From the NCBI GenBank assembly GCA_015057715.1, contig SVDS01000012.1, positions 1-63,600 on the forward strand: 63,600 nt of DNA. Reading direction: 5' to 3'. Under the pieces are notes generated by a model. It was not told the DNA's origin and did not search any database. It saw only the letters and a list, made by a program, of their open reading frames with translations. Position 1 is the first letter of the stretch. Every line of letters begins with the position of its first letter. The translations under genes and the position numbers were made by a program. This DNA is from Paenibacillaceae bacterium. GTDB taxonomy: Bacteria; Bacillota; Clostridia; Lachnospirales; Lachnospiraceae. This document shows, in pieces, positions 34,145 to 51,621 of this stretch.

Positions 34145-34169
34145 TATGGAAGGAAAAGAGGTGAATAAA

Positions 34170-35222
34170 ATGGGTTTAGAAGAATATAAGGGTGTCTACA
34201 TATTTGCCCAGCAGGTGGATCATCAGCTTAGCCGAATTGCATTGGAACTGCTGGGTAAGGCAAGGGAACTGGCAGAGAATCTGGGGACGGATGTTACGGC
34301 GGTCCTGTTAGGCTCCGATGTAAAACAGATGGCAGATGAACTGGCTGAATATGGGGCGGATCATGTCATTGTGGTTGATAATCCGGTGTTAAAGGAATAC
34401 ATGACAGAACCATATACCCATGCTCTTTCCAGTGTGATTGAGAAATACAAACCGGAGATTGTATTGGTGGGTGCAACTGCAATTGGCCGTGATCTGGGAC
34501 CAAGAGTTTCGGCAAGGGTTGCAACTGGGCTCACTGCAGACTGTACCAAACTGGAGATCGGAGATTTTCCGCTTAACCCGGTAGCAGGAAGAGAACAGAA
34601 GCACAACCAGCTTCTGATGACCCGACCGGCTTTCGGCGGCAATACCATAGCCACCATAGCGTGTCCCAATCACCGTCCCCAGATGGCTACTGTGCGCCCC
34701 GGGGTGATGCAGGCAATCACACCCATAAAAGACCGGAAGGCAATGGTGGAAGAATTTGATCCCGGATTTACGCCCGATCATAAGTATGTTGAGATACTGG
34801 ATATTGTAAAATCGGTAGCGGAGTGCGCTGACATCATGGATGCCAAAATACTGGTGTCTGGCGGAAGGGGCATTGGCGGACCGGAAAATTTTGGTTTACT
34901 GGAAGAACTGGCTTCTTCTCTTAATGGTCAGGTCAGCTGTTCCCGCGCCGTTGTAGATGCAGGCTGGAAACCCAAGGATATGCAGGTAGGACAGACCGGC
35001 AAGACTGTGAGGCCAAATGTATATTTTGCCATTGGCATTTCAGGAGCGATCCAGCATGTGGCGGGTATGGAAGAGTCTGATATCATAATTGCTGTCAATA
35101 AGGACGAAACAGCTCCTATTTTTGATGTGGCTGATTATGGGATTGTGGGGGACTGGAAAAAGATTGTACCGGAGCTGATAAAAAAGATTCGCAGTGAAAC
35201 AGTAACAGCCCCTGTATACTAA
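34170..35222 (+). CDS. etfA: Electron transfer flavoprotein, alpha subunit
   Basis: A 350-residue EtfA with the FAD-binding C-terminal domain: [20 protein letters not shown], then the [28 protein letters not shown] block and the [23 protein letters not shown] end. I chose the ATG at 34170, six bases after GAGGTG; an ATG at 34146 in frame would add eight residues. It passes electrons between EtfB, Bcd and ferredoxin. It is the last large gene of the operon before a small membrane protein. Confidence 0.95.
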
Positions 35223-35624: not shown

Positions 35625-36521
35625 TCAGTTGCTGCAGCTTTTAAAATATTCATCAGCCACTTCCAGTAATTTCTCAATACAATCATTTGATTCCCTGTTA
35701 TAAAGGCATGTTACTTTAAAATAATCATCAAAACCCGTCAGAGGAACAAATCGCACGGTATCATTTGCAAACTGTTTCATATGGCTGGCGAGAATGGAGA
35801 TGCCCAGCTGGCAGTCCACCATAAGCATCATATTAATCAGAGAGTTGGCCTCATAAACCGTGTTGGTAGAATAACCTTCCTGAGAATAGATATTGTCAAT
35901 CAAATTATGGTCGGTTCTGGAATACTTAGGGTCCATATGTATAAATGGCTCGTCCTTTATCATGGTGAGAGAAACAGATTTCAGCTCCGAAAATTTGTGG
36001 TTTTGAGGCAGAACCACACACATATGGTCTGTGAAAACGGTCTTTTTTAAAAACTGAGGCGGGCAGTCAATTTCTATATCCGGTAAGATGGCAACATCAA
36101 TCTGACCGCTTGTTAAGGTTTCCATAATGTAATCGTAGGTGTAGTCCATGGGGTTCACCTTGATGGTTGGGTGAAGCTCATGGAACCGCTTGATCAGCTT
36201 GGGAAAATGATGGACAAGGGCAGTTCCTAAAAGTCCGATGCTGATGACTCCTGTTGTCCCGTTTTCCATGTCTTTTACTTTTTTTACGGCAGAATCATAA
36301 GCATGAAGTATCTTTTTAATCTCGTGGTAAAAAATCTTTCCGGTTGGAGTCAGTTTTACCTCTCTTTTGTTTCGAATGAAAAGCTGGGAGCCGATGGAAT
36401 GCTCTAAGTTGATGACCAGCTTACTTAACGTCGGCTGGGTGATGTGAAGCTGTTGGGAAGCCTTCGTGTAGCTGAGGGTCTCAGCTAGGACAATAAAATA
36501 TTCTAATTGAAAAAGGTTCAT
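35625..36521 (-). CDS. LysR-family regulator of the phloroglucinol-type operon
   Basis: A 298-residue LysR protein with HTH YTKASQQLHITQPTLSKLVINLE and a full effector domain (about 90-290). It is divergent from the operon beginning at 36759, and the gap contains nested inverted repeats (36610-36658) with an ATTACT-N5-AGTAAT centre, consistent with a T-N11-A LysR site. The expected role is activation of the downstream genes when phloroglucinol or a breakdown product is present. It is less similar to the other two LysR proteins of the window than they are to each other. Confidence 0.9.
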   Translation of the reverse strand: MNLFQLEYFIVLAETLSYTKASQQLHITQPTLSKLVINLEHSIGSQLFIRNKREVKLTPTGKIFYHEIKKILHAYDSAVKKVKDMENGTTGVISIGLLGTALVHHFPKLIKRFHELHPTIKVNPMDYTYDYIMETLTSGQIDVAILPDIEIDCPPQFLKKTVFTDHMCVVLPQNHKFSELKSVSLTMIKDEPFIHMDPKYSRTDHNLIDNIYSQEGYSTNTVYEANSLINMMLMVDCQLGISILASHMKQFANDTVRFVPLTGFDDYFKVTCLYNRESNDCIEKLLEVADEYFKSCSN

Positions 36522-36758: not shown

Positions 36759-37703
36759 ATGATTCGTAATATTGCTGTGATAGGAGCCGGTACCATGGGG
36801 CATGCCATAGCGGGGTGCTTTGCTCTATATGGATATCCTGTTTCGGTTTATGAAAGCTTTGAAGAGGTACGCAATACCTGCAGGGAAACAATAAGAAAAC
36901 AGTATAAACTTCTCCATGAGGAGGGGCTGATTGAACCGGGCGATATAGAAAAATCTTTGATCAGAATCCAGACCTTTGATGACCTTAAGACCGCTGTAAA
37001 GAATGCAGATTATATCATCGAAGCCATTCCGGAAAGACTGGATTTAAAGCAGCAGCTATTTGAAGACCTCATAAAGTACTCTCCGGCAGATGCCATCATC
37101 GCCAGCAACACTTCCAGCATCGCATTTTCCGACTTAACCTCAAAATTAGAGGAAAAGGATAAATCCAGGGTCATGGTATGCCACTGGTATAATCCTGCCC
37201 ATTTAATTCCGCTGGTGGAGCTGTCATTTTTCGGAAACATGCCGGAAAGCCGTTTCAAGGAGGTAGAGGATCTTTACCGATCCATCGAAAAAAGGCCTGC
37301 AAAGGTGAAAAAGGACATTCCAGGACTTTTAGCCAACCGAATCCAGCAGGGTATCGCAAGAGAGGTATTTTCCCTCATGGAAATGGGCGCGGCTGATCCC
37401 GGGGATATTGATGTTGCTTTAAAATACGGCCCTGCATTTCGGTATGCCACCACTGGTCAGCTTGAGGTGACCGACTTCGGCGGGCTGGACATCTGGTGCG
37501 CCGTGGGAGACAACCTGTTGGCTGTTATGGATCGGTCAGCTCAGGCAAGCCCGCTTTTGCGGGAAAAGGTCATGGAAGGCAAGCTGGGATTTAAGACAGG
37601 AGAAGGGTTCTTTGCGTATCCGGAGCAGGAAAAGCAGGAGATTCAGAACCAGTTCCATAAGCGGTTAATCCGACAGCTTAAGACCAGTAAGAATTACGAT
37701 TAA
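36759..37703 (+). CDS. 3-Hydroxyacyl-CoA dehydrogenase family protein, probable 3-hydroxy-5-oxohexanoate dehydrogenase
   Basis: A 314-residue NAD-dependent dehydrogenase. The Rossmann motif AVIGAGTMGHAIAG starts at residue 5, and the catalytic histidine is in VMVCHWYNPAHLIPLVE. The C-terminal helical domain follows (about 190-300). Ordinary members oxidise L-3-hydroxyacyl-CoA; in the published clostridial phloroglucinol pathway a dehydrogenase of this type oxidises 3-hydroxy-5-oxohexanoate to triacetate. The neighbouring reductase, ring hydrolase and BKACE genes make that the likely role here. The ATG at 36759 follows AGAAGGTG. It is the first gene after the divergent lysR. Confidence 0.78.
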   Translation: MIRNIAVIGAGTMGHAIAGCFALYGYPVSVYESFEEVRNTCRETIRKQYKLLHEEGLIEPGDIEKSLIRIQTFDDLKTAVKNADYIIEAIPERLDLKQQLFEDLIKYSPADAIIASNTSSIAFSDLTSKLEEKDKSRVMVCHWYNPAHLIPLVELSFFGNMPESRFKEVEDLYRSIEKRPAKVKKDIPGLLANRIQQGIAREVFSLMEMGAADPGDIDVALKYGPAFRYATTGQLEVTDFGGLDIWCAVGDNLLAVMDRSAQASPLLREKVMEGKLGFKTGEGFFAYPEQEKQEIQNQFHKRLIRQLKTSKNYD

Positions 37704-37737
37704 ACGCAGCAAAAGCATATAAAACGGAGGGGAAATA

Positions 37738-38085
37738 ATGATAAAGAGAACGCTGGAAGAATTAAAAAGCTACAATGCCCCAGGCCATTTCCAAATGACG
37801 GCTATGAGGATTCATGGAAAAGAAGAGACAGGAGCCAGGAAGTTCTGGATGGGACTGTCCACTTTTTTACCGGGAGGCGGGGCGGAATATGCCTATGAAG
37901 ACAATCCCTTAGAGAAGGTATATTACGTCCTGGAAGGTGAAATGACAGTGACGGATAAAACCGGAACCAGGTATGTCATTCATCAGAACGAAAGCATTTC
38001 CTTCCAGCCCAATGAAGGACGCTATTTAGTCAATGAATCCAACCGTCCGGCAAGTATGCTGGTCATCATCAATTATCCGGAGTAG
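37738..38085 (+). CDS. Small cupin-domain protein
   Basis: A 115-residue single-domain cupin. The beta-barrel motifs appear as STFLPGGGAEYAYEDNPLEKVYYVLEGEMTV and, after a gap, SISFQPNEGRYLVNES. The usual second-position histidines of the first metal motif are replaced (AEYAYEDN), so it may not bind metal in the normal way. Cupins serve as isomerases, dioxygenases or regulators. It lies between the dehydrogenase and the SDR reductase, with AACGGAGG before its ATG; it may assist tautomerisation of dihydrophloroglucinol, but that is a guess. Confidence 0.75.
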   Translation: MIKRTLEELKSYNAPGHFQMTAMRIHGKEETGARKFWMGLSTFLPGGGAEYAYEDNPLEKVYYVLEGEMTVTDKTGTRYVIHQNESISFQPNEGRYLVNESNRPASMLVIINYPE

Positions 38086-38100
38086 GAGGAAGAGATCCAT

Positions 38101-38889
38101 ATGGTAAGCAAGGAATTTATGGGAAATTTATTTGACGTGTCCGGCAAGGTTGCCCTTGTGACGGGAGCCACAGGAGCTCTTGGAAAGGCAGTGTCCATCG
38201 GTTACGGTCTGGCAGGAATGAAAGTCATGGTCACAGGCCGCAAGGAAGAAACCTGCAGGGCGCTTTGTAAGGAGTTAGAAGTACAGGGCATTCAGTGCGG
38301 ATATTCCACAGGGGACCCGGCTGTAGAAGCAGATGTGATTAAGGTTGTCAACGATACCATCAAGGTATTTGGAGAAATCAATGTGCTGGTGACAGCGGCT
38401 GGATACAATAAGCCTCAGCCCATAGTCGAACAGGATTTATCCACATGGAAGCAGATTATGGATTCAGACGTTCAGGGAACCTGGCTCTTTTGCAAATACG
38501 TGGGTGAGCAGATGATAAACCAGGGCAAAGGCGGAAAGGTTATTATGGTTTCCTCTGCCCGCTCCAAAATGGGCATGGCAAATTATACTGGCTATTGTAC
38601 CGCAAAGGGCGGCATTGATTTAATGGCCCAGTCTCTGGCCTGCGAGTGGACCGCAAAATACCACATTAATGTGAACACGATTAATCCCACCGTGTTCCGC
38701 TCTGATTTAACCGAATGGATGTTTGCCCCGGAAAGCGCTGTTTACCAGAATTTCTTAAAACGCCTTCCCATCGGACGTCTGGGTGAGCCGGAGGATTTTG
38801 TGGGGCCGTGCATTTTTCTGGCATCAAAGGCCAGCGATTTCATGACGGGGGCCAATGTGGCCACAGACGGTGGATATTGGGCCAACTAA
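38101..38889 (+). CDS. SDR-family reductase, probable phloroglucinol reductase
   Basis: A 262-residue short-chain dehydrogenase. The cofactor loop TGATGALG begins at residue 21, and the active-site residues are the serine in VSSARS and YCTAKGG (Tyr-x3-Lys). The usual NAG motif is altered to TAAGYN. NADP preference is plausible, since an arginine-containing GRKEE follows strand 2. The known phloroglucinol reductase of clostridia, which reduces the aromatic ring to dihydrophloroglucinol with NADPH, is an SDR protein in the same gene setting. The assignment therefore rests on neighbours. A GGAGGAAGAG site precedes the ATG. Confidence 0.75.
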   Translation: MVSKEFMGNLFDVSGKVALVTGATGALGKAVSIGYGLAGMKVMVTGRKEETCRALCKELEVQGIQCGYSTGDPAVEADVIKVVNDTIKVFGEINVLVTAAGYNKPQPIVEQDLSTWKQIMDSDVQGTWLFCKYVGEQMINQGKGGKVIMVSSARSKMGMANYTGYCTAKGGIDLMAQSLACEWTAKYHINVNTINPTVFRSDLTEWMFAPESAVYQNFLKRLPIGRLGEPEDFVGPCIFLASKASDFMTGANVATDGGYWAN

Positions 38890-38948
38890 TTGGAGCCAGA
38901 CCATTTGAACATAAAAAATATATAGTTAGATGACGGAGGTAAACACCC

Positions 38949-39884
38949 ATGAGCAAGAAAGTATTCGTAGACTTAACCCATCCATTCAGTGCCGATATTC
39001 CCCGCTGGCCATATTTTGACAAGCCAGTCATCGACAATAAGCACTCCCTTGCAAAGGGCGGTGTTTTAACCCAATACATAGGCTGCACCATGCATACCGG
39101 AACCCACTGCGATGCACCGAGACATGTCATGGAGAAGGAATTTGACGGAAAACGTGCCCGTTATACCCATGAGATGCCAGTAGATGCTTATACAGGAGAT
39201 GCCATCTGTCTGGAAATTGAAATCGAGACATGGGGGCTTATTACAGGAAAGCATTTAGAAGATGCATGTGATAGAGCCAACATTAAACCGGAAGAACTGG
39301 AGGGCATGATTGTCTGCTTAAACACCGGAATGCACCGCAAGTTTGACGATTCCAAGGAATATTACCACTATTCCTGCGGCACAGGCATTGAAGCTGGGAA
39401 ATGGTTTGTGGAGCACAAGGTAAAATGTGTCGCTATGGATATGCAGGCATTAGACCATCCCCTTCACACAGCCATGGGCAACAACGGCATGACAAGAATG
39501 AATTTATTAGGTGCTTCCGGAAGACCCATCACCGAGGAATATATTGAAAAATTCGGTGAAGAGGCATATGCGGAATTTGATAAAGAATTATACATCAGAC
39601 TTCACGGCCAGGAAGCCTATAACGAGAAATTTGGTGAACTGGAAGCAATCGGCTGCTGGGGAACCTGGGAGCCGTGCCATAAAGAGATGCTGGGACACGG
39701 AATCGTGGGCGTAGAAAACTTAGGGGGCAACTTAGATAAAGTTTCCGGAAAACGGTTCCGTTTCTACTGTTTCCCTCTCCGCTGGCACTTAGGTGACGGT
39801 TCCATGGCACGTTGCGTGGCAGAAATCGACGAGGACGATTTAAACGATGTTCCGGAAAGAACATATCAGTATGGAGGATTTTAA
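38949..39884 (+). CDS. Cyclase-family metal hydrolase, probable dihydrophloroglucinol cyclohydrolase
   Basis: A 311-residue member of the cyclase/kynurenine-formamidase fold (PF04199). The metal-binding signature HTGTHCDAPRH starts at His49 (His49, His53, Asp55), and the later VAMDMQALDHPLHT segment adds further ligands. It is longer than ordinary formamidases (~210 residues), with an extra ~80-residue C-terminal region. In the published pathway, a manganese-dependent protein of this family opens dihydrophloroglucinol to 3-hydroxy-5-oxohexanoate. It sits between the SDR and BKACE genes, with the BKACE start only one base after its stop. Confidence 0.78.
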   Translation: MSKKVFVDLTHPFSADIPRWPYFDKPVIDNKHSLAKGGVLTQYIGCTMHTGTHCDAPRHVMEKEFDGKRARYTHEMPVDAYTGDAICLEIEIETWGLITGKHLEDACDRANIKPEELEGMIVCLNTGMHRKFDDSKEYYHYSCGTGIEAGKWFVEHKVKCVAMDMQALDHPLHTAMGNNGMTRMNLLGASGRPITEEYIEKFGEEAYAEFDKELYIRLHGQEAYNEKFGELEAIGCWGTWEPCHKEMLGHGIVGVENLGGNLDKVSGKRFRFYCFPLRWHLGDGSMARCVAEIDEDDLNDVPERTYQYGGF

Positions 39885-39885
39885 T

Positions 39886-40719
39886 ATGGAAGATTTGAGC
39901 AATAAGGTAATTCTGACCGTAGCCACTACGGGCGCCTGGCCCACAAAGGAAATTACCCCCTATGTGCCCATTCAGCCCGAAGAGATCGCCCAGGAGGTTT
40001 ACGCCTGTTATAAAGCAGGGGCTTCCATGGCACACATACACGTAAGAGATGACCAGTCGAAAGCTTCCATGGATTACAATAAATTCGAAGAGACTGTCCG
40101 TCTCATCCGAGCCAAAGAAGATTGTGATATTGTCTTAAATTTAACAACCTCCGGAGGGATCGGATTGGACGATGAAGTAAGAATCAGACCCTTTAAAGAA
40201 TTAAAACCGGAGCTGGCTTCTTATGACTGCGGTTCCATGAACTGGCAGAATAACTGCGTGTTTGAAAACAGCCCTGCTTTTCTGGAGAAACTTGGCAACG
40301 CCATGGAGGAAGCAGGTGTAAAGCCTGAAATTGAAATTTTCGATGTGGGTATGATCTACAATGCCCTTTATTACTTAAAAAAAGGCGTCTTAAAAGCCCC
40401 TCTCCATTTTCAGTTTGTATTAGGCGCGGCAGGAGGAATGCCTGCAACCGTAGAAAACCTGGTCTATTTAAAAAATCTGGTTCCGGAAGGTTCCACCTGG
40501 AGTGCTCTTGGGATTGGGAAAGGCCACCTTCCCATTCTATACACCGCGCTGGCACTTGGGGGAAATATCCGTGTGGGAATGGAAGATAACATTATGTACA
40601 GCAAAGGGGAACTGGCAAAGTCTAATGTAGAATTTGTGGAACGGGCAAAGCGCATCATCCATGAATTTGGCAAAGAGGTTGCTACACCGGAGGAAACAAG
40701 ACAGATACTTGGGGTATAG
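39886..40719 (+). CDS. BKACE-family beta-keto acid cleavage enzyme, probable triacetate acetoacetate-lyase
   Basis: A 277-residue DUF849/BKACE protein. The zinc-binding HIHVRDD appears early (near residue 47), and [24 protein letters not shown] near the end is the family's second signature. BKACE enzymes condense a beta-keto acid with acetyl-CoA and split it to a new acyl-CoA and acetoacetate. For triacetate (3,5-dioxohexanoate) the products are acetoacetate and acetoacetyl-CoA, which the thiolase and CoA-transferase downstream could use. The ATG at 39886 follows GGAGGATTTTAAT; an ATG at 39847 in frame lies inside the cyclase gene. Its stop touches the first copy of a 52-bp tandem repeat. Confidence 0.85.
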
Positions 40720-40844
40720 CGTGGGCAGGAAAGAGGAAACACCCTGCGGGTATACCTTTATGCCCAGAAAGCGTGGGCAGGAAAGAGGAAACACCCTGCG
40801 GGTATACCTTTATGCCCAGAAAGCGTGGGCAGGAAAGAGGAAAC
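40719..40844 (+). repeat. 52-bp tandem repeat (2.4 copies) containing the thiolase ribosome site
   Basis: The units at 40719-40770 and 40771-40822 are identical, and a 22-bp partial third copy (40823-40844) ends directly at the thiolase ATG. Each unit begins GCGTGGGCAGGAAAGAGG, so the AGGAAAGAGG ribosome site is present three times, although only the last is next to a gene. At each junction TGCCCA pairs with TGGGCA around a 7-base loop (40761-40779 and again 40813-40831). Perfect identity suggests recent duplication, and copy number could vary. Confidence 0.95.
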
Positions 40845-42023
40845 ATGAGAGAAGTTGTTATTGTAAGTGCTGCCCGGACAGCCATCGGCAGCTTTGGGGG
40901 CAGCCTTGCTGCCATTTCAGCGGTGGATTTAGGGGCCACGGCTGCAAAAGGTGCGATCGAACGGGCTGGAATTAAGCCGGAGCAAATTGATGAAGTCATC
41001 GTAGGAAATGTACTCAGCGCAGGCTCAGGACAAAACGTGGCACGCCAGATATCCTTAAAAGCAGGGGTGCCGGTGGAGGTACCCGCTATGGGAATCAGCA
41101 AAGTTTGCGGTTCCGGCTTAAGAGCAGTTACTCTTGCTGCACAGATTATTAAGGCGGGAGATGCCGACTTGATCCTGGCTGGCGGAGCAGAGAGCATGTC
41201 ATGTGCGCCCTATGTCTTAAACAATCACCGGTTCGGACACAAAATGGGAAATGAAACTCTGGTAGATACCATGATTCAGGATGGCCTGTGGGATGTATAT
41301 AACGATTATCACATGGGTGTCACTGCAGAAAACATTGCGAAGCGGTACAAAATAACCAGACAGGAGCAGGACATGTTTTCAGCAGAAAGCCAGCAAAGAG
41401 CACAAAAGGCCATAGAAGCAGGCCGTTTTAAAGAAGAAATCGTACCGGTTTTAATCCCTGTAAGAAAAGGCGAGCCCAAGGTTTTTAATACGGACGAATT
41501 TCCTCGGTTCGGAACGACAGAGGAGACCCTTGGAACGCTTCGTCCCTCTTTTATCAAGGACGGAACCGTCACAGCAGGCAATGCTTCCGGATTAAATGAT
41601 GGAGCTGCCATGGTGATTCTCTGCTCCAAAGAAAAGGCGGAAGAATTAGGGCTTCCGATTATGGCAAGGATTACAGGCTATGGCTCTGCAGGCGTAGAAC
41701 CGGAGGTTATGGGTCTTGGCGTGATCCCGGCGGCAGAGCTTGCCATGAAACATGCCAAAATCACCGCGAAAGAACTGGATCTGGCAGAAGCCAACGAAGC
41801 ATTTGCGGCTCAGGCTATTGCCGTGTGCCGTGACTTAGGCCTTGACCCGGCAAAGACCAACGTAAATGGCGGGGCGATTGCCTTAGGCCATCCCATCGGC
41901 GCTTCCGGAGCAAGAATCCTGACCACCCTCCTCTATGAGATGGAGAAGCGGGATGCAAAAAAAGGTCTTGCCACCTTATGCATTGGCGGGGGCATGGGAA
42001 CAGCAATCGTAGTGGAACGATAG
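40845..42023 (+). CDS. Acetyl-CoA C-acetyltransferase (thiolase)
   Basis: A 392-residue thiolase that splits acetoacetyl-CoA with CoA to two acetyl-CoA, or runs in reverse. The nucleophilic cysteine is in [11 protein letters not shown], the catalytic histidine in [20 protein letters not shown], and the second cysteine in [13 protein letters not shown]. The start is the ATG at 40845, just after the last repeat unit; the frame stays open upstream through the repeats but that part is not conserved sequence. In this operon it would finish phloroglucinol breakdown by cleaving acetoacetyl-CoA from the BKACE and CoA-transferase steps. Confidence 0.95.
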
Positions 42024-42034
42024 GAGGAATGCGC

Positions 42035-42694
42035 ATGAAAATAGTTTCGCCCCAGGAAGCGGTTGCTTCCATTAATGACGGAGCCGTAATCATGATCGGA
42101 GGTTTCATGTCAAACGGAACTCCGGAAATCCTGATTGATGCGCTGATAGAAAAAGATCTTAATAATCTTACGATTATTGCAAATGACGGAGGAACTCTTG
42201 ATACAGGAATTGGCCGTCTTATTAAAACAGGAGCAGTCAGCCGACTGATCGCTTCCCACATTGGCCTAAATCCACTCACAGGACAGCTTATGAACGAGGG
42301 AAAAATGGAGGTGCAGCTTGTACCTCAGGGAACTCTTGCAGAGCAGATCCGCGCGGGAGGAGCTGGCCTTGGTGGTGTTCTCACCCCGACCGGACTGGGC
42401 ACAGAAATTGAAGAGGGAAAACAGGTAATTGAAGTGGAGGGAAAACACTTTGTCCTTGAAAAGCCACTAAAAGCCGATTTTGCTCTGATTCGCGCCTCCG
42501 TTGCTGATGAAAAGGGTAATTTGTTCTACCGGGCAACCACCAGGAATTTCAATCCCATGATGGCGACTGCGGCAGAAACCGTAATTGCAGCGGCGGAAGA
42601 GATCGTGGAAGTAGGAAAGATTCAGGCAGAAAGCGTAGCTACGCCTGGAATATTTGTGGACTTCCTTGTAGGAGGTGAACCTTATGTCGATTAA
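42035..42694 (+). CDS. 3-Oxoacid (acetoacetate) CoA-transferase, subunit A
   Basis: A 219-residue alpha subunit. The glycine-rich [17 protein letters not shown] start, the [13 protein letters not shown] loop and the [15 protein letters not shown] segment are typical of AtoD/CtfA proteins. With subunit B it moves CoA from acetyl-CoA or another donor to acetoacetate. It has a GGAGGAAT site and its last bases overlap the subunit B start by 11. In this operon it would activate acetoacetate released by the BKACE step. Confidence 0.93.
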
Positions 42695-43331
42695 AGAAAG
42701 GATTGCCAGGCGTGTGGCAAAAGAATTAAATGACGGAGATGTGGTAAATCTGGGAATTGGACTTCCTACCATGGTTGCCGATTACATACCGGATGGAATG
42801 ACCATTCACCTCCAGTCTGAAAATGGAATCCTGGGCATGGGACCTGTGCCTGGAGCCGACGGATACGATTCTAATATTGTCAATGCAGGCGGAAAACCTG
42901 TGACTGTAGAACATGGAGCCAGTTATTTTGACAGTGCATTTTCCTTTTCCATTATTCGCGGGGGGCACGTGAATGTAACGGTTCTGGGAGCCTTGCAGGT
43001 GGATCAGCAGGGAAGCCTTGCCAGCCACATCATACCCGGTAAGATGGTTCCTGGCATGGGGGGAGCCATGGATTTAGTAACAGGCTCCAAAAAGGTGATC
43101 ATTGCCATGACCCATACGGCAAAGGATGGTTCTCCAAAGATATTAAACAATATCACATTACCGCCAACGGCAGTTTGTAAGGTCCACAAAATTGTGACGG
43201 AACTTGCTGTCATTGAGGTGACAAAGGACGGTCTTGTCCTTAAGGAAGTTTCCGTGGACACAACACCAGAAGAGGTGGCTGCAAAGACAGAAGCACCTCT
43301 GATTATGGCGGAGTGCATCGGGCGCTTTTAA
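42684..43331 (+). CDS. 3-Oxoacid (acetoacetate) CoA-transferase, subunit B
   Basis: A 215-residue beta subunit carrying the catalytic glutamate in [12 protein letters not shown]. The [13 protein letters not shown] segment and the [14 protein letters not shown] region are standard for AtoA/CtfB proteins. The ATG at 42684 follows GGAGGTGAA inside the end of subunit A, ensuring coupled synthesis. The stop is followed by 83 bases to the PhlG-like gene without an obvious terminator. Confidence 0.93.
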
Positions 43332-43414
43332 TATTCCACTGACTTGAAGTATTTTAGAAAATGAATTATAAATATAGTTTAAGCAATAAAAAATTAAAGA
43401 CAGGAGATAGGAAT

Positions 43415-44209
43415 ATGGGGAAAAAAGTCGGCGTAAGCCAGGAAGAAAAGAACTTATCCTATTATAAGTTTTTTGAGCGCCCTATGGCAGAAATACCGGA
43501 GGAAAAGCTTGCCATCTTAATAAATGGCCAGGGGGACAAAAAAGCGGGAGTGCCATTTGAAAAAAGAAACCTCTATCTTGCAGGAAATGATGAAGAATAC
43601 TGTCAGAATGGTTACGGTGTCCATGATGATGGAACCGGCTACGTATGTAATACCACATACATGCCCGGCGTCACAGGAGACATGCTGGACTGGTGGTTCC
43701 CCTGGCATAGTGTAGGTTCCGATCTCCGCTATAAAATATGGGACCCGGAGGATCATTGTTTTGCCAGGGCTGACCGGCCGGATTACGTCTGTGACCCTGA
43801 AGTACCAATGAGGGAGAAGACCTGGGGAGTAAACCACTACATAATGGAAGATATTGGCCCTGGTTTTGAATTCCTTAAGCTGTGTTTCAAAAGCCCGGCT
43901 GATTTCGGTTATGATCCCTCCCTCGTGGGGAGTGAAGGATGTGAGTCTATGGTCTGTGCCATTGGAGAGAGCTCCTGCGCCTGCGCCATGACCCATAAAT
44001 GGTATCCTTATAAGGAGGGGGTTATGTTCTGCTCCCGCTTCTGGATCGGCTTTAAGCTGGAGAATGGAACGATACAGAAAGCCCTGCCGGAAGGCTTAAA
44101 AATTCCGGAAATTGCTGCTAAGAGCCTCTTTGCCCACAACATCAAGGAATTTTCCAATTTAGCCGCTATCTTGCCGGAAGTGTACGCACAGAACAAAGAT
44201 AGTTTTTAA
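43415..44209 (+). CDS. PhlG/phloretin-hydrolase family C-C hydrolase
   Basis: A 264-residue member of the 2,4-diacetylphloroglucinol hydrolase family, which also contains phloretin hydrolase of Eubacterium ramulus. These zinc enzymes cut the C-C bond between a phloroglucinol ring and its acyl side chain. The zinc ligand pattern is visible as His114 (WDPEDH), Glu145 (HYIMEDIG), and His241 with Glu245 (AHNIKEFSNLA). The MLDWWFPWHSVGSDLRYKIW segment is the family hallmark. I chose the ATG at 43415, after AGGAGATAGG; one at 43361 has no site. It would supply phloroglucinol to the genes upstream. Its stop overlaps that of the converging pucR-type gene. Confidence 0.88.
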   Translation: MGKKVGVSQEEKNLSYYKFFERPMAEIPEEKLAILINGQGDKKAGVPFEKRNLYLAGNDEEYCQNGYGVHDDGTGYVCNTTYMPGVTGDMLDWWFPWHSVGSDLRYKIWDPEDHCFARADRPDYVCDPEVPMREKTWGVNHYIMEDIGPGFEFLKLCFKSPADFGYDPSLVGSEGCESMVCAIGESSCACAMTHKWYPYKEGVMFCSRFWIGFKLENGTIQKALPEGLKIPEIAAKSLFAHNIKEFSNLAAILPEVYAQNKDSF

Positions 44210-45723
44210 AATTCCAATAATCGAAAGGAAAATTCATAGGAAAAAAGAAGCTCTGCACTAGACGGATCAAATCCCGTCAAGTCTGCAATTTTACCGATGC
44301 GGTAAAAAAAGGTGCTTTTATGTATGTGCAGGTAATTGGAAGTATTTAAGGCATTACGGTTATTTAAAAAATATGCCTTTAGAGTCTTCATGTATTCTGT
44401 GTTATTTTCCCGGTCATAGTTTTGCAGAAATATAAGATCCGGATGAATGAGGGTCTCTGTATTGATCTGATTTTGTGAGGCTGCCATAAGATGGTTTAAA
44501 TAATTGTCTTCATAAGTGATAATGTGCTCCTTCCTGATACAGTTTTGATTCCTCAGCAGAAACATTACCTGGTTATAATAGCGTGGGGTATCCAGTAGCT
44601 GCTCAAATCGAAAACTAATGGCAGCATGGATCTGGTTCAGCTGAAGAAAGTGAGACAGCTTCTGTTTGTCAATGGACTGGTAAAGATCTTTGCAATTGCT
44701 GGTGTGCAAAAGAATTAATGTCCCTTTATAAAAGAAAGCCATGCTGTGCTTAAAAATCCCTGATAGCTGGTCAATATAGTAATTAGGGTTTAACTGGTGA
44801 TTGGAAAAACCATGAAAGGTGAATCCCAGTACCCATAAATACTGGCAGAAGGTCTTTCCAAGCTGTGCCAGGTGCCGGGCTGCAATGCTTTTGCTGTCCA
44901 GATTCTGCTCGATTAAGTCGGTTAAGAAACACTCATATTTCAGCCCTGTTTTTTCTGCGTAACACTCATCCTTTTGCATTTCCAGGGAGATGAGCTTGGA
45001 CAGGTTCATGGCAAAGGAACTGTCAGCATCTTTAAACGGACGGTTAAGGGAGCTGATACATAAGTATCCCACTGCGGCACGTCTGATATGAATGCTACAG
45101 AACAGATAAGAGATTTCGTGTGTATCATCCGGTTCCACTATGATCGGGGAGGACGAGGTAAACAGATGCTGCAGAACCTGTTTTTCTTTCATGCTCTGTA
45201 TAAAATTACTTTTTAAATAGAATTTTTCATCATAGACATCAAATTTATCATCAAAATAATTCTTAGGGCTGGAGGCAAGCACGGAGAAGCTTGTGGTACA
45301 TAAGGTTATGGGGTTATTTAAAAATGACATTGCCGTGTCAAGCATGCCCTGGTAACCATAACCTGCCTGCAATACCTGCAATACTTCATCTTTCTTTAAG
45401 TCCGCCTTGCGGCAATCGTATAATTCCTGCTGTATGCAGTTTAAGACCGCAAAGGAGTCCAGGTTCTCTTTAATGGTAAGCCTGTTTGTGTTTTCTTCAT
45501 TGGAACAACAGTTGAGCAAAAGAATACAGCCGTCTGGAATGAGAGATTTAAGATCCGGATAAGTTCCTATGTACAGCGTGTCGGGATCAGGCTGCAGCTG
45601 ACCGTCATGAGAAGGCAGCAGATAATAAACGCTCTCAATCCTTTGGCTGGAAAAAATGGGCCCGTGAACATGAACCTGAAATGTATCTTGTATCTTTTGA
45701 ATGATATTATTTAAACAAGCCAT
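44206..45723 (-). CDS. PucR-family transcriptional regulator
   Basis: A 505-residue regulator. The C-terminal PucR-type HTH is TLKAYFLNNRNALNTSNYLHIHKSTFFYRIGKI (near 455-490). The N-terminal ~400 residues combine a sensory region with a GGDEF-like fold core found in CdaR/PucR proteins. The ATG at 45723 follows AAAGGAG; a frame eight codons longer exists upstream. It is divergent from the redox operon starting at 45938, whose upstream region contains a 10-bp inverted repeat spanning both promoters. Its stop codon overlaps the PhlG-like stop by three bases, so the two transcripts converge with no room for a terminator. Confidence 0.85.
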   Translation of the reverse strand: MACLNNIIQKIQDTFQVHVHGPIFSSQRIESVYYLLPSHDGQLQPDPDTLYIGTYPDLKSLIPDGCILLLNCCSNEENTNRLTIKENLDSFAVLNCIQQELYDCRKADLKKDEVLQVLQAGYGYQGMLDTAMSFLNNPITLCTTSFSVLASSPKNYFDDKFDVYDEKFYLKSNFIQSMKEKQVLQHLFTSSSPIIVEPDDTHEISYLFCSIHIRRAAVGYLCISSLNRPFKDADSSFAMNLSKLISLEMQKDECYAEKTGLKYECFLTDLIEQNLDSKSIAARHLAQLGKTFCQYLWVLGFTFHGFSNHQLNPNYYIDQLSGIFKHSMAFFYKGTLILLHTSNCKDLYQSIDKQKLSHFLQLNQIHAAISFRFEQLLDTPRYYNQVMFLLRNQNCIRKEHIITYEDNYLNHLMAASQNQINTETLIHPDLIFLQNYDRENNTEYMKTLKAYFLNNRNALNTSNYLHIHKSTFFYRIGKIADLTGFDPSSAELLFSYEFSFRLLEF

Positions 45724-45804
45724 TGAAACTCCTTTTCTTTGAGACAAATGTAGGAAATCATCCCGGTAATATGAGAAAAATTTTCGATAAATGATGGAAG
45801 CTTC

Positions 45805-45919
45805 TTTATCTAAAGTATGTTATTATTTTAACGAACCAGTAGACAGTATTTTTATAGATATTTACATAACAGAACTTTATTATGATAACTTTCAATAATT
45901 GTACTAAATTTTAGATAAA
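45805..45919. promoter_or_regulatory. Widely spaced inverted repeat between pucR and the redox operon
   Basis: TTTATCTAAA (45805-45814) and its exact inverse TTTAGATAAA (45910-45919) bracket the divergent promoter region, 95 bases apart. One arm lies 82 bases upstream of the pucR start and the other 18 bases before the flavoprotein start. A regulator binding both arms could loop the region. The shared 17-mer GATAACTTTCAATAATT lies at 45884-45900. Confidence 0.5.
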
Positions 45920-45937
45920 TAGAAAAGGAGAATATTC

Positions 45938-46882: not shown

Positions 46883-46904
46883 AATTAAAAATGGAGGTAT
46901 TTCG

Positions 46905-48386
46905 ATGAAGCAGTTACAGACAGATGTTATTGTGGTGGCAGCAGGACTTTCTGGAATGGCAGCAGGCATTGCTGCAGCAGAAAATGGGGCAGAGGTAATC
47001 ATTTTTGAAAAATCCAATACAACCGGCGGCGCTGCCAATATGGGAATGGGACCTCTTGGGGTGGGTTCTCCCATACAGAAACAGCAGATGATTTCTCTCA
47101 CACCTGGCGAAGCATTTCGCAAGCACATGTATTATACCCATTATCGGGTGGATGCGCGTCTGGTCCGGGATTACTATTATAAGTCCGGAGAGACCATTGA
47201 ATGGCTTATGGACATGGGAGTAGAATTTTTAGGAGTGCAGAGGGCATTTAATGCACCGGAAGCCACAAGAGCATATTCGGATGGGGAATTTACCTGGCAT
47301 GTGGTAAAACCGGAAGGCGGCGGAGCTCCTGGCCCACGCTGTGCAACGGCTATGACAAAGAAGATGACGGAACGGGCAAAAGAGCTGGGAGTGGTATTTT
47401 ACATGGAAACTCCTGTTGCCAAAGTTATTGTGGAAGATGGACGTGCTGTGGGAGTTATTGCCAGAGACAGAGATGGTGGAGAAATAGAAGCAAGAGCCAA
47501 GGCGGTGATTCTTGCAACCGGAGGTTTCGGAGACAACCCGGAAATGATCAGAGAACAGACCGGATATGAATTTGGTAAGACAATCTTTAATTTTGCCATA
47601 CCTGGAATGAAAGGGGAAGGAATCAAAATGGCATGGGAAGCCGGTGCCGGTCGTACTCCATGCACCATGGAACTGATGTACCAGCTTCCGGATAACATGA
47701 ATCATTTTATTCTGGACGGAGCATTCCGCCAGCCATGTCTTTGGGTTAATCGGAATGGATACCGTTTTATGCCGGAAGACCAGATTGCCAATACTACATT
47801 TACCGGCAACGCGATTTCCTCTCAGCCAGGCTTTGTAGCATATTCCATCTTTGACAGTAAGTTATTAAAGAAATATAAGAAAAAAGGTCCGGATATTATT
47901 TCTCATGTGCATCCTCACGATCTGTTCGACCACTTCGACGATCAGTGGGGAAAGGATTTAGCCGATGGATATGAACCAATCTGTCAGGCAGACACCATAG
48001 AAGAATTGGCAGAGAAAGCCGGAATTGATCCGGAAGGGCTGAAAAAACAGGTGGAAGAGTACAATGAAATGTGCGAGACCGGATTTGATGAGATTTTTGA
48101 AAAAAACCGGGCATTTATGCAGCCCATCGAGAAAGGTCCATTTTATTGCTGCCGTCAGAATGTAGGGGCTTACGGCACTTTGGGTGGAGTGAAGATTAAT
48201 CATAAGACACAGGTATTAAATGAAGAAGCTAAGGTAATTCCTGGATTGTATTGTGTTGGGACAGATGCCTGCAATATTTTTGGAGACAGCTATCCGTTTA
48301 TCCTATCCGGAAATTCAATGGGATTTTGCTTAAACAGTGGAAGAATAGCAGGAGAAAATGCAGCAGAAGAAGCGGTTGAGTATTAA
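46905..48386 (+). CDS. FAD-dependent oxidoreductase, fumarate-reductase flavoprotein family
   Basis: A 493-residue FAD protein. The dinucleotide fold VVAAGLSGMAAGIAAAENGAEVIIFEK starts near residue 10 (with AAGLSG in place of the usual GxGxxG), and the substrate domain carries a capping region and YGTLGGVKINHKTQV followed by GLYCVGTDACN typical of the fumarate reductase/urocanate reductase group. These enzymes reduce an activated C=C bond. It has no fused FMN_bind domain or heme motif, so electrons must come from partners. Its operon mates, an Fe-S flavoprotein and two NADH-dehydrogenase-like proteins, could supply them. The likely substrate is an unsaturated acid or phenolic, not known. Confidence 0.85.
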   Translation: MKQLQTDVIVVAAGLSGMAAGIAAAENGAEVIIFEKSNTTGGAANMGMGPLGVGSPIQKQQMISLTPGEAFRKHMYYTHYRVDARLVRDYYYKSGETIEWLMDMGVEFLGVQRAFNAPEATRAYSDGEFTWHVVKPEGGGAPGPRCATAMTKKMTERAKELGVVFYMETPVAKVIVEDGRAVGVIARDRDGGEIEARAKAVILATGGFGDNPEMIREQTGYEFGKTIFNFAIPGMKGEGIKMAWEAGAGRTPCTMELMYQLPDNMNHFILDGAFRQPCLWVNRNGYRFMPEDQIANTTFTGNAISSQPGFVAYSIFDSKLLKKYKKKGPDIISHVHPHDLFDHFDDQWGKDLADGYEPICQADTIEELAEKAGIDPEGLKKQVEEYNEMCETGFDEIFEKNRAFMQPIEKGPFYCCRQNVGAYGTLGGVKINHKTQVLNEEAKVIPGLYCVGTDACNIFGDSYPFILSGNSMGFCLNSGRIAGENAAEEAVEY

Positions 48387-48427: not shown

Positions 48428-50518
48428 ATGTGGCTAACAATTGATGATAAGCAGATAGAGGCAAAAGAAGGAATGTCCGTTTTAAATGCTGCTTTGGGGG
48501 CGGGAATATACATTCCACATCTTTGCGGGCATCCAGATCTGGAGGCGATAGGTGGATGCCGCCTGTGTTCGGTAGAGATTGAGGGGATGGATCAGGCAGT
48601 TCCATCCTGCATGATAAAGGCGCAGGAAGGGATGAAGGTTTCTGTTCATGGTCCAAAAGCTGAAAGTACCAGAAAGACGGCAATGGAGCTGATTCTTGCA
48701 ACCCATCCGGCGGACTGCACCGGCTGTCCCAAGTATGGTAAATGTGAATTGCAATCCATGTATCAGTATCTGGGAGTGGGTCCCGAGCGGTGGAAAAAGA
48801 AGTCCAGAACAGTCCCTACCGATGACAGCAACCCCTTAATCCGGCATTTGTTTACCAGATGCGTTCGTTGCGGACGCTGTGTGCGCGCCTGCAGAGACCT
48901 TCGCGGGGTGAAGGTACTGGATTTTCAAAGAACAGAAGATGGAGTGCGCATTGGAACCGACGGAAATATTTCCCTGAAAGAAGCAGGTTGTAAATTCTGT
49001 GGAGCCTGCATTGAAGTATGCCCTACCGGCTCCATTATGGATGCCCTTGGACAGATAAGGGAAGATGTCTCTTACAGGGAAAGTGTGGTTCCATGCAAGA
49101 CTGCATGTCCTGCACATACAGATATCCCCAGATACTTAAGGTACATAAAAGAGGGAGAATATGAAAAAGCAACCGCTGTTATACGCGAAAAGCTGCCGTT
49201 TCCAGAAACACTGGGATGCATCTGCAATCACATATGCGAAACAGCCTGTAAGCGCAACGAGCTTGGAGAGCCCCTGTCTGTCTGCAAGTTAAAAAGGGCC
49301 GCAGCTGCCGCTCATTCCGATGAATGGAAGAAAAGAAGAAAAACCGCGGCTCCCACAGGGAAAAAGGCGGCTGTAATCGGAGCTGGTCCGGCAGGCCTGA
49401 CAGCGGCCTATTATCTGGCTAAGAAGGGCCATGAAGTAACCGTATTTGAGTCCAACGAAAAAGCGGGGGGACAGTGCCGTTATGGAATCCCTTCCTACCG
49501 GCTGCCGGATGAGGTGCTGGACCGGGAGATCAGCGATATTCTGGAAGTTGGGGTTCAGCTGAACGTAAATACGAAGGCTGACGCACCGGAAGTTCTTTTA
49601 AAACAGGGATATGATACGGTTTTAATTGCCACCGGCACCCATAAGGGCATCCGTCTGCCTTTGGAAGGAAATATGCTTTCCGGAGTCATGCTGAATACAG
49701 ATTTTCTTAAAAATGCACGCAGAAACCAGATTGATGATCCAGGTAAAAGAGTGATGGTGCTGGGCGGCGGAAATGTTGCTTATGACTGCGCCAGGACAGC
49801 TCTTCGCCTGGGGGCAGAAGAGGTCCACATTGCCTGTCTGGAAGACGGGGATCAGATGACTGCATCAACAGAAGAAATCCGGGAAGGAAGAGACGAGGGA
49901 ATCATTCTTCATTCCGGTCATTCGTTCCTTCGTATAACAGGAAACACGAAAGTAGAAGGCGTTGAACTTCAAAAAGTGGAGAAGTTTTATTTTGATGAAA
50001 ACAGGAAAGCAGTCATAGAGCTTGTAGAGGGATCACGGGAGAGCATACCGGTGGATCGTGTAATTTTTGCTGTGGGACAGGCACCGGCTGGTATGGAGGA
50101 GTTGGGAATTGAACTAAATCCCGGTTCCTATGTAAAGGTAAACAGCTCTTGTTCTACCAGTATGCCAGGGGTTTATGGGGCTGGCGATGTGGTAACCGGA
50201 ACAAAATCAGTGATAGAGGCCATTGCTGCCGGGAGACAGTCTGCCATGGAGATGGACCGTTACCTTGGCGGAGACGGAGACATTTCCGAAGAACTGCTGG
50301 AAAAGGAAACGGCGGATCCGTTCCTTGGAAGGACGGAAGACTTTGGAAAACTGGAGCGGCTGTCACCGGCACTTTTGGAACCCCAGGAACGGAAAAAAAG
50401 CTTTGCTGCAGTGGAACAGACATTTACCTGTGAGGAAGCAAAATGTGAGGCAGGGCGCTGCCTGCAATGTGATCTGAGGTTGAATTTAACCAACCCCAGG
50501 CTTTGGAACGAATACTAG
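48428..50518 (+). CDS. Large NAD(P)/FAD iron-sulfur oxidoreductase (2Fe-2S, 4Fe-4S and GltD-like domains)
   Basis: A 696-residue multidomain electron-transfer protein. Domain order: a 2Fe-2S ferredoxin fold with Cys33, Cys44, Cys47, Cys61; a NuoG-type His-Cys cluster (His93, Cys97, Cys100, Cys106); two 4Fe-4S clusters (Cys145-155 and Cys188-198); a cysteine-rich GltD N-terminal region (about 223-275); then an FAD/NAD(P)H domain starting at AVIGAGPAGLTAAYYL (315), with VLGGGNVAYDCARTAL for the second nucleotide. The combination resembles HydB/NfnB-like subunits that oxidise NAD(P)H and pass electrons to ferredoxin-type centres. The following NuoF-like gene overlaps with its end region, so they probably form one complex. 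Confidence 0.88.
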   Translation: MWLTIDDKQIEAKEGMSVLNAALGAGIYIPHLCGHPDLEAIGGCRLCSVEIEGMDQAVPSCMIKAQEGMKVSVHGPKAESTRKTAMELILATHPADCTGCPKYGKCELQSMYQYLGVGPERWKKKSRTVPTDDSNPLIRHLFTRCVRCGRCVRACRDLRGVKVLDFQRTEDGVRIGTDGNISLKEAGCKFCGACIEVCPTGSIMDALGQIREDVSYRESVVPCKTACPAHTDIPRYLRYIKEGEYEKATAVIREKLPFPETLGCICNHICETACKRNELGEPLSVCKLKRAAAAAHSDEWKKRRKTAAPTGKKAAVIGAGPAGLTAAYYLAKKGHEVTVFESNEKAGGQCRYGIPSYRLPDEVLDREISDILEVGVQLNVNTKADAPEVLLKQGYDTVLIATGTHKGIRLPLEGNMLSGVMLNTDFLKNARRNQIDDPGKRVMVLGGGNVAYDCARTALRLGAEEVHIACLEDGDQMTASTEEIREGRDEGIILHSGHSFLRITGNTKVEGVELQKVEKFYFDENRKAVIELVEGSRESIPVDRVIFAVGQAPAGMEELGIELNPGSYVKVNSSCSTSMPGVYGAGDVVTGTKSVIEAIAAGRQSAMEMDRYLGGDGDISEELLEKETADPFLGRTEDFGKLERLSPALLEPQERKKSFAAVEQTFTCEEAKCEAGRCLQCDLRLNLTNPRLWNEY

Positions 50519-50532: not shown

Positions 50533-51621
50533 ATGGATATGATTATTTGCAATGCAATGCCAGTTTATCATGAGGCACCCGTTTCTCCTATGCTTTTAAA
50601 AGATAACACGGAAAAGGTTCTGGAAGCGCTGTTTAAAGAACCTGCCGGTATTCGTTACCTGATTGTGCCGGAAGGCGGCTGGGTATGGGATAAACCTGAG
50701 GGTCTGACTATTATCGAGACTCGTCATAAATCCGGTTTTACTTATGGAAATGATTCTGCTCTGAAAAAGGTGGCTGAGGGAGAAAAGCCCATTCCATTAT
50801 GCCCTAATGATGGTTTTCGCTCTGGCGATTGCAGAGTAGTGACTGTGGAAGAACTGCTGAATGCCGGAAAGAAGAAAGTGTATGTCGCAGGTAAGGCTGA
50901 GAAAAAGGGGATTCTTGACCTGGACAGAACGATAACTCCGGCAGACATACTGGCGGCCGCTGGTGTGCAGGGGAAATTCAAAACAATGTACTTCGGTCAT
51001 CCAATGGGAGTTTTCATCAACGAAAGCAGGTTGGACCAGCCAGTTGAACTGACCACGGATTATATTGAAATCTTAAATGAGTCTGATTGCATGCTGGACT
51101 ATCTTCTTAAAACCGCAGACAGATATGGCAGAGAAGCTTGTGGGAGATGTGTTTTTGGTCATGAAGGCGTTTTTCAGATCCGTATGCTTTTAACAGATAT
51201 GACTTTAAAAAAAGGAAAACTGTCCGATCTGGATTTAATGTTGGAATTATGCCATGAAATGAAGCGGCAATCTCTTTGCGAAGCCGGTTTTTCCATTGCC
51301 AATACGGTGGAGAGCGCTTTGGAATGCTTCAAAAGTGAAATAGAGGAGCATATCACCAGGAAAAGCTGTAAAGCAGGAGTATGTCAGAAATTTTTGACTT
51401 TTCACATTCTGCCGGATATATGTACAGGCTGCACGGAATGCCTTGATGTATGTGAGGACGAAGCGATTCTCGGGAAAAAGAAATTTATCCATGTTATCGA
51501 CCAGAATGAATGCTCTGGTTGCGGCGACTGTATAGAGGCCTGCGAGGAGAATGCAATTATTAGGGCAGGAGCGGATAAGCCCAAATGTCCGAAAAAACCG
51601 GTACCATGTAAGCGCATATAA
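50533..51621 (+). CDS. NuoF-like iron-sulfur protein lacking the FMN/NADH domain
   Basis: A 362-residue protein. It has an SLBB-like region (VYVAGKAEKKGILDLDRTITPADILAAAG, near 120-150), and then a NuoF-type N3 region, REACGRCVFGHEGVFQIR, in which the third cysteine of CxxCxxC is missing. Two C-terminal 4Fe-4S clusters follow (CTGCTECLDVC and CSGCGDCIEAC). The N-terminal Rossmann-like FMN/NADH-binding domain with GRGGAGFP is absent. It thus looks like an electron-relay subunit derived from NuoF. The ATG at 50533 follows AGGAGGAATAAGG. It ends the operon, with a perfect terminator 32 bases downstream. Confidence 0.82.
   Translation: MDMIICNAMPVYHEAPVSPMLLKDNTEKVLEALFKEPAGIRYLIVPEGGWVWDKPEGLTIIETRHKSGFTYGNDSALKKVAEGEKPIPLCPNDGFRSGDCRVVTVEELLNAGKKKVYVAGKAEKKGILDLDRTITPADILAAAGVQGKFKTMYFGHPMGVFINESRLDQPVELTTDYIEILNESDCMLDYLLKTADRYGREACGRCVFGHEGVFQIRMLLTDMTLKKGKLSDLDLMLELCHEMKRQSLCEAGFSIANTVESALECFKSEIEEHITRKSCKAGVCQKFLTFHILPDICTGCTECLDVCEDEAILGKKKFIHVIDQNECSGCGDCIEACEENAIIRAGADKPKCPKKPVPCKRI

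Follow-up and report, generated by a model that had tools for sequence, protein, structure and literature searches.

Positions 36759-44209 of the window, a 63,600-nucleotide stretch of contig SVDS01000012.1 from a Lachnospiraceae genome of 5.4 Mb in 283 contigs, hold a real and conserved catabolic locus in which genes of the phloroglucinol pathway are joined to a gene for a carbon-carbon hydrolase of the PhlG/phloretin-hydrolase family. From the sequence comparisons below we consider it probable that this operon lets its bacterium, a presumably anaerobic member of the Lachnospiraceae of Lacrimispora type, use flavonoid-type compounds through their phloroglucinol ring, which the PhlG relative would release and the other enzymes would degrade to acetyl-CoA. 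An operon of this release-then-degrade kind had been proposed in a first-pass annotation of the same DNA, and the proposal is now supported by conserved residues, by co-occurrence within the genus, by a clade shared with a Eubacterium ramulus protein, and by a homologue of flavone reductase (FLR) next door.

The locus comprises nine co-directional genes on the + strand, flanked by a divergent LysR gene and a convergent PucR-type gene: seven catabolic genes (two of them for the subunits of the CoA-transferase), a cupin gene, and phlG. The intergenic gaps are 34, 15, 59, 1, 125, 11, -11, and 83 bases, and a Shine-Dalgarno-like stretch lies 5' of each start. All the open reading frames (ORFs) of the annotated gene set were found on the + strand, and their proteins all score above the Pfam cut-offs (3HCDH_N/3HCDH, Cupin_2, adh_short_C2, Cyclase, BKACE, Thiolase_N/C, CoA_trans twice, and DAPG_hydrolase).

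36759..37703, +, candidate 3-hydroxy-5-oxohexanoate dehydrogenase (TfD role), divergent subfamily; 3HCDH; S119/H142/N193 kept
37738..38085, +, small cupin without HxH metal motif; Cupin_2 1.8e-11; 17-row alignment and cluster survey
38101..38889, +, predicted phloroglucinol reductase (PGR), a short-chain dehydrogenase/reductase (SDR); PDB 5g4k/5g4l
38949..39884, +, predicted dihydrophloroglucinol cyclohydrolase (DPGC), cyclase family; PF04199; W20/Y22
39886..40719, +, predicted triacetate acetoacetate-lyase (TAL), BKACE family; PF05853 5.8e-107; Trp18
40718..40845, no strand, tandem repeat of a 52-bp unit, 2.5 copies, running up to the thiolase start; 100% matches by Tandem Repeats Finder
40845..42023, +, predicted acetyl-CoA acetyltransferase (thiolase); Thiolase_N 1.1e-106
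42035..42694, +, predicted acetoacetate:acyl-CoA CoA-transferase subunit A; CoA_trans; TIGR02429 above cut-off
42684..43331, +, predicted CoA-transferase subunit B; CoA_trans; TIGR02428 above cut-off
43415..44209, +, PhlG/phloretin-hydrolase family C-C hydrolase; PF18089; zinc ligands H114, E145, H241, E245

In the proposed route, PhlG would cleave an acylphloroglucinol hydrolytically at its C-C bond, giving phloroglucinol and an arylpropionate; the substrate is most likely phloretin (a dihydrochalcone) or a hydroxylated relative. With NADPH, PGR would then reduce phloroglucinol to dihydrophloroglucinol, DPGC would open its ring by Mn-dependent hydrolysis to give 3-hydroxy-5-oxohexanoate, the TfD-like dehydrogenase would oxidize this to triacetate, TAL would convert triacetate and acetyl-CoA to acetoacetate and acetoacetyl-CoA, and the CoA-transferase and thiolase would carry out the last steps to acetyl-CoA. 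The dihydrochalcone would be supplied from flavones or flavanones by the FLR homologue, a VprA-like flavoprotein, and two Fe-S proteins encoded beyond the operon. Each reaction is assigned by homology, to genes whose content, order, conservation, and diagnostic residues are observed directly.

Predicted enzymes of the phloroglucinol pathway

The PGR, DPGC, and TAL assignments are supported by comparison with characterized enzymes. The PGR candidate finds its best PDB match in 5g4k/5g4l (8e-103), the next distinct protein following at 2e-39; we take 5g4k/5g4l to be the PGR of Clostridium sp. ATCC BAA-442, the PDB listing naming only an SDR oxidoreductase. In the DPGC candidate, Trp20 and Tyr22 stand at their published numbers, and the WPYF motif with W20/Y22 recurs in all 27 aligned rows, including those from Mycobacterium and Alphaproteobacteria. 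The TAL candidate has Trp18 at the position of a Glu in the aminohexanoate enzyme, as in the Clostridium scatologenes enzyme (CsTAL), and this Trp is found in 18 of 20 aligned rows, the Novosphingobium and Mycobacterium rows lacking it. The accessible text of the C. scatologenes study ties W20/Y22 of DPGC to dihydrophloroglucinol and the TAL Trp to triacetate (PMC10470551). The first-pass annotation had taken the SDR, cyclase, and BKACE proteins for phloroglucinol enzymes, and their closest characterized relatives do not prove to act on unrelated substrates: the SDR leads to 5g4k/5g4l, and the other two carry the published residues.

Among 250 genomes of the family, relatives of the DPGC at 72-90% identity occur in 12 besides that of the window. 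Two of these genomes, with identities of 80% and 73%, we take to be Eubacterium oxidoreducens and E. ramulus. Both species are reported phloroglucinol degraders (PMC10470551).

The dehydrogenase keeps the catalytic residues S119, H142, and N193, and has Leu57 and Ala226 in place of the CoA-contact residues Lys56 and Asn221 of HBD (positions counted by hand on the alignment). C. scatologenes TfD (CsTfD) has likewise kept Ser/His/Asn and lost both CoA contacts (PMC10470551). The protein is 85-95% identical to those of six Lacrimispora-type loci (L061-L066), and 36% identical to its counterpart in L119, a locus of a Fusobacteriaceae metagenome-assembled genome (MAG). The TfD-like rows of 13 other clusters in the family are mutually 56-92% identical in 12 cases, with L148 as an outlier at 31-39%. 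A search of the source genome with E. ramulus TfD returned two matches, the 36759-37703 gene at 34% and another at 29%, and no closer TfD. With this result, and with 31-37% identity to the rows of the other clusters, we read the dehydrogenase as a non-orthologous replacement from a subfamily separate from their TfDs. The earlier description of this member as hydroxyacyl-CoA-dehydrogenase-like holds for the family, but the protein is not an orthologue of the dehydrogenases of other clusters.

The PhlG relative and its tie to the operon

The hydrolase gene is better started at 43415 (264 amino acids), where close relatives start, and with this start the zinc ligands named in the first pass (His114, Glu145, His241, and Glu245) are correct. 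They are invariant in 9/9 and 10/10 aligned rows and align with those of PhlG structure 3hwp, which we believe are numbered 129/160/270/274. The gene is the sole PF18089 match in its genome (230 bits against a cut-off of 22.7; 2.5e-68). Its nearest relatives in named loci, among the matches listed, belong to Lacrimispora xylanisolvens and to a MAG labelled Paenibacillaceae (95% and 97%).

In a midpoint-rooted tree of 46 rows, in which several inner forks are weak, the protein clusters with Lacrimispora-type sequences (100/100), and the 44-row set around them (100/100) also includes an E. ramulus protein at 68% identity; a second E. ramulus copy (42%) falls outside this set. The two copies have masses of 30.88 and 31.56 kDa, respectively, and the published E. 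ramulus phloretin hydrolase (Phy) presumably one of 30.8 kDa, so the 68% copy is the more likely to be the characterized Phy, mass being a weak proof.

The natural substrate might be something other than phloretin, such as a hydroxydihydrochalcone, an auronol from flavanonols, or a microbial mono- or diacetylphloroglucinol. This would be compatible with the operon's proposed function; we judge it rather unlikely. Some family genomes hold 3-7 PF18089 match rows of very different sequence (7 being the maximum, with partial ones among them), from which PF18089 proteins probably act on more than one substrate, and the similarity of our protein to the structures of phloretin hydrolase and of 2,4-diacetylphloroglucinol (DAPG) hydrolase is weak in both cases. 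The FLR homologue next door and the clade shared with E. ramulus point instead to flavonoids, the more so if that clade holds the characterized phloretin hydrolase, as the masses weakly suggest. A natural fusion of 818 amino acids was seen at L151:9677-12130 (G229:C3), joining a fumarate-reductase-type flavoprotein (FAD_binding_2, Succ_DH_flav_C) to a PhlG domain; genes for an MFS transporter, PGR, TfD, DPGC, and TAL adjoin it.

Co-occurrence was counted in the 250 family genomes, our own included, with strong DPGC defined as at least 72% identity and strong PF18089 as E<1e-50. Strong DPGC was found in 13 genomes and strong PF18089 in 11, of which 10 are shared; G154, G025, and G110 have the former without the latter, and G126 the reverse. 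The two genes are close only in our locus and in G229. Within the genus, DPGC is present in 8 of 25 genomes and PhlG in the same 8 plus G536 (53%). The start-to-start distance is 4.4-4.5 kb in all eight, and because the pairing recurs in the same 8 of 25 genomes the arrangement is not due to chance. These counts come from related genomes and are not independent events; the L151 fusion and L119, where this gene set recurs together with PhlG and an FLR-like gene, are separate cases. The FLR homologue occurs in 12 of the 25 genus genomes (the same 8, G536, G537, and, at 35%, G528 and G532). It lies no more than about 2.7 kb from PhlG in 7 of the 8 genomes with DPGC, and on another contig in the fragmented assembly of G540.

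Several observations weigh against this reading of the locus. The PGR candidate has TGRK against the published NADPH motif TR(S/N); in a 21-row alignment, TGRN is found in 9 rows (5g4k among its bearers), GRK or GRG in 11, and another form in L148, which at 28% identity is not a PGR. The BKACE protein falls below the NCBIfam cut-offs both for 3,5-dioxohexanoate cleavage (NF053538; 231 against 430 bits) and for the aminohexanoate enzyme (321 against 382). Likeness to the C. scatologenes enzymes was judged by published residues rather than by direct alignment to the C. scatologenes sequences, and the dehydrogenase lacks orthology to its counterparts in other clusters. PhlG is far from its solved relatives, phloretin hydrolase 5xe5 of Mycobacterium abscessus (6e-20) and PhlG 3hwp (1e-15), and reaches 72.5 bits against a cut-off of 600 for the DAPG hydrolase model NF047887. 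Since the SDR, cyclase, and BKACE families are broad, the departing dehydrogenase subfamily and the TAL and PhlG scores below NCBIfam cut-offs could fit a look-alike gene set for another cyclic dione or trihydroxybenzene, with the PGR, DPGC, and TAL labels wrong. We find this highly improbable in view of the WPYF motif in every DPGC row, the Trp in nearly all TAL rows, and the high DPGC identity to two presumed species that degrade phloroglucinol.

To the same side of the balance belong two results on linkage. Of the 10 family genomes with both a strong PhlG and a strong DPGC, 8 have the two on separate contigs or more than 50 kb from each other. In a survey of PhlG loci (the best 80 of 242, from named genomes, with identity cut-offs of at least 40% for the flavoprotein, 28% for FLR, and 35% for old yellow enzyme (OYE)-type reductases), DPGC was not seen within the stretch in 73 of 80 loci, many of the stretches being short and many loci cut by contig ends. 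PhlG accompanies the VprA-like flavoprotein without DPGC in 17 of the 80. The operon might thus serve phloroglucinol that is already free, whatever its origin (tannins or dead plant matter, for instance), PhlG and the FLR block being a separate unit that stands beside it by chance. We hold this to be unlikely, since phlG is co-directional with the operon and begins 83 bases after ctfB, is near DPGC in all eight genus genomes and in L119, and is found as a fusion among the phloroglucinol genes of L151.

The flavone reductase homologue, the flavoprotein set, and the cupin

Four genes beyond the PucR-type gene, and the two regulators that frame the operon, are as follows.

35625..36521, -, LysR-type regulator, divergent, probable regulator of the operon; Pfam HTH_1 and LysR_substrate; kept in 6/6 loci L061-L066
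44206..45747, -, PucR-type regulator between the two divisions of the locus; HTH_30 5e-14; kept in 6/6 loci L061-L066
45938..46882, +, FLR-family ene-reductase homologue; only PDB match 7d38/7d39/7d3a/7d3b
46905..48386, +, FAD flavoprotein of the fumarate-reductase family, closest model VprA; candidate flavanone/chalcone reductase; NF053717, below cut-off
48428..50518, +, NuoG-like 2Fe-2S/4Fe-4S and GltD-like FAD/NAD protein, candidate electron supply; Fer2_4, NADH-G_4Fe-4S_3, Fer4_20, Pyr_redox_2
50533..51621, +, NuoF-like 4Fe-4S protein, candidate electron supply; NADH_4Fe-4S 2.7e-17; ATG at 50533 after a Shine-Dalgarno-like stretch

Residues 3-299 of the FLR homologue align to 7d38-7d3b (3.2e-28; listed as Cd1), which we take to be the flavone reductase of Flavonifractor plautii. 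E. ramulus and G536 have FLR-like genes adjoining OYE-type reductases, and the homologue is 67% identical to these. Its place beside PhlG, which the first-pass annotation did not note, favors a flavonoid source. In G547, which we take for Lacrimispora xylanisolvens, the homologue is in two pieces with one TGA (G547:C1:4645663-4646600) and may be broken or wrongly sequenced. The F. plautii enzyme and its crystal structure have been described, and flavone consumption was examined by deleting a Clostridium ljungdahlii gene 29.69% identical to FLR, in a section whose heading describes FLR as crucial for that consumption (PMC7862272); low identity to FLR is therefore no bar to flavone reduction.

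The flavoprotein scores 338.6 bits (6e-101) against the vinylphenol reductase model NF053717, under its cut-off of 600. It occurs in 22 of the 80 PhlG loci surveyed, accompanied by the NuoG/GltD-like protein in 21 and by the NuoF-like protein as well in 20 (30-89%). FLR-like genes are present in 18 loci, and FLR, flavoprotein, and both Fe-S proteins together in 16; the gene order of this block varies between groups. DPGC was found in 7, an OYE-type reductase in one (L101, without the flavoprotein), and none of FLR, flavoprotein, OYE, and DPGC in 54. No OYE-type reductase of at least 35% identity was found within the stretch of any surveyed locus with the flavoprotein set; weaker matches (25-26%) lie inside the GltD-like gene in L071 and L096, and another was found in L132. 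The flavoprotein is present in 16 of the 34 loci that extend 7 kb to either side, among them 14 with FLR and 0 with OYE; the other 18 have none of these.

In G536, of the same genus, an FLR-like gene, an OYE-type reductase gene, and phlG stand in a row, as proposed for Clostridium butyricum (PMC11868195), and in E. ramulus an FLR-like gene adjoins an OYE gene. The genome of the window has eight OYE matches, the best at 38% to the G536 copy, itself 83% identical to an E. ramulus protein; an OYE-type flavanone-cleaving reductase (Fcr) may thus lie elsewhere in the genome. The proposed Fcr of Clostridium butyricum is only 32% identical to that of E. ramulus (PMC11868195). Inspection by eye of the longer ORFs that flank the two OYE genes of E. 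ramulus revealed no recognizable chalcone isomerase. At L148:4562-9886 (G154:C13), genes of the VprA-like, NuoG/GltD-like, and NuoF-like kinds stand beside a second DPGC in a stretch that lacks PhlG, an arrangement that counts against a purely PhlG-linked role of the flavoprotein set.

The cupin, treated in the first-pass annotation as an extra part with no assigned step, proves to be a recurrent member of phloroglucinol clusters rather than a local extra. By tblastn, with at least 28% identity required across half of the protein, it was found in 7 of 13 clusters from 12 family genomes (L141, L142, L144, L146, L149, L152, and L153; in L152 at only 31-33% and on the opposite strand) and not in L143, L145, L147, L148, L150, or L151. 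It is also present in L061-L066, in L119, and, at 54%, in Acetoanaerobium. A plasmid survey gave 7 hits, the Sinorhizobium one without annotation, and a cupin is annotated in all 5 annotated clusters (Mycobacterium riyadhense, Rhizorhabdus, Novosphingobium, Pacificitalea, and Aminobacter); no BKACE is annotated in the Pacificitalea and Aminobacter stretches. Clusters with the cupin are thus spread over Bacillota, Fusobacteriota, Actinomycetota, and Alphaproteobacteria. A metallo-cupin dioxygenase was ruled out, HxH being found at the motif in 0 of 17 aligned rows, which include, of the plasmid cupins, only those of Mycobacterium and Novosphingobium. In Acetoanaerobium noterae, a partial second copy lies directly 5' of the full one (L164:5607-6186). 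Four enzymes were enough in vitro in the C. scatologenes work (PMC10470551), and for this reason our guess is a helper role, such as tautomerization; the main text of that paper, figures and supplements aside, has 0 mentions of a cupin, and its supplementary tables may list cupin or Lacrimispora.

These observations lead us to a wider and tentative proposal, which we think less probable than not. The VprA-like flavoprotein with the NuoG/GltD-like and NuoF-like proteins (46905-51621) could form a second, non-OYE flavanone/chalcone reductase, driven by NAD(P)H via the Fe-S proteins and replacing Fcr, so that 36759-51621 would be one flavone-to-acetyl-CoA island; the same set with FLR and PhlG would serve other Bacillota (Mediterraneibacter, Gemmiger, Butyricicoccus, and Sharpea); and the metal-less cupin, widely conserved but so far overlooked, would take part in phloroglucinol catabolism, perhaps as a tautomerase of phloroglucinol or dihydrophloroglucinol.

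Elsewhere in the window, the 52-bp repeat between the TAL and thiolase genes carries the thiolase ribosome-binding site; a 22-base piece of it has one exact match in L061 and none in L062-L066. Genes for MaoC-like, LuxE-like, LuxC acyl-CoA reductase, AMP-ligase, and EtfBA proteins (EtfBA labelled from reading the sequence, not by family search) and for an acyl-CoA dehydrogenase closest to acryloyl-CoA reductase stand in a row at 27426-35222 and make up a CoA-ester reduction block. As an arylpropionate route this block (27.4-35.2 kb) was rejected: EtfBA is present in L061 and L062, but about 2.2 kb upstream of LysR in L063-L066 gave no match to it at 55% identity. Genes for an aldehyde dehydrogenase, an iron alcohol dehydrogenase, an HpaB-family protein, and an acetyl-CoA hydrolase/transferase at 19028-25695 look to us like a 4-hydroxybutyrate fermentation set. 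At 53047-63509 are two MFS_2 transporters, a carboxylesterase, GH3 and GH2 enzymes, and an AraC regulator, which could feed deglycosylated plant compounds to the locus.

Comparison with known systems

The pathway and its joining to PhlG are of known kinds, since they are reported in Mycobacterium clusters, as flr-phy neighbors, and as Phy homologues in several gut bacteria (PMC8398226), and the release-then-degrade principle is already known. The swapped dehydrogenase, the recurrent metal-less cupin, and a VprA-like set in place of Fcr were not found in the open-licence literature, supplements excluded, with few searches aimed at them; by title or abstract, we found no open-licence paper on a cupin in phloroglucinol clusters and none linking Lacrimispora with phloroglucinol. 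If the proposed function is right, one locus would mark bacteria able to convert a flavonoid completely to fermentation products, an ability not easily recognized when the genes are dispersed. The locus would also expose two testable gaps in the described pathway: the role of the cupin, and the flavanone-opening enzyme in PhlG-FLR loci without an OYE-type Fcr beside them.

As far as the accessible text of each report goes, the closest parallels are these. The C. butyricum flr-fcr-phy and C. ljungdahlii flr-phy arrangements (PMC11868195) have an FLR-family gene adjoining a phloretin-hydrolase-family gene, as here, but C. butyricum has a proposed OYE-type Fcr where our locus has the VprA-like flavoprotein and two Fe-S proteins, and in our locus the phloroglucinol operon is joined to these genes. 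VprA of Lactiplantibacillus plantarum WCFS1 (PMC10295242) provides the best NCBIfam model for 46905-48386, yet by the cut-off rule our protein is not a VprA member, and it is accompanied by NuoG/GltD-like and NuoF-like proteins. The Mycobacterium phloroglucinol clusters (PMC10470551) hold a phloretin-hydrolase-family gene inside the cluster, as does our locus; they belong to another phylum, and our PhlG is distantly similar to the M. abscessus enzyme. The C. scatologenes cluster (PGR-DPGC-TfD-TAL; PMC10470551) shares the same four enzyme families, the thiolase and CoA-transferase, W20/Y22 of DPGC, the TAL Trp, and a dehydrogenase without the CoA contacts. Our locus differs from it in having the dehydrogenase gene first in the operon and of another subfamily than that of 12 mutually similar clusters (a comparison that did not include C. 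scatologenes TfD itself), and in carrying both the cupin and PhlG within the operon.

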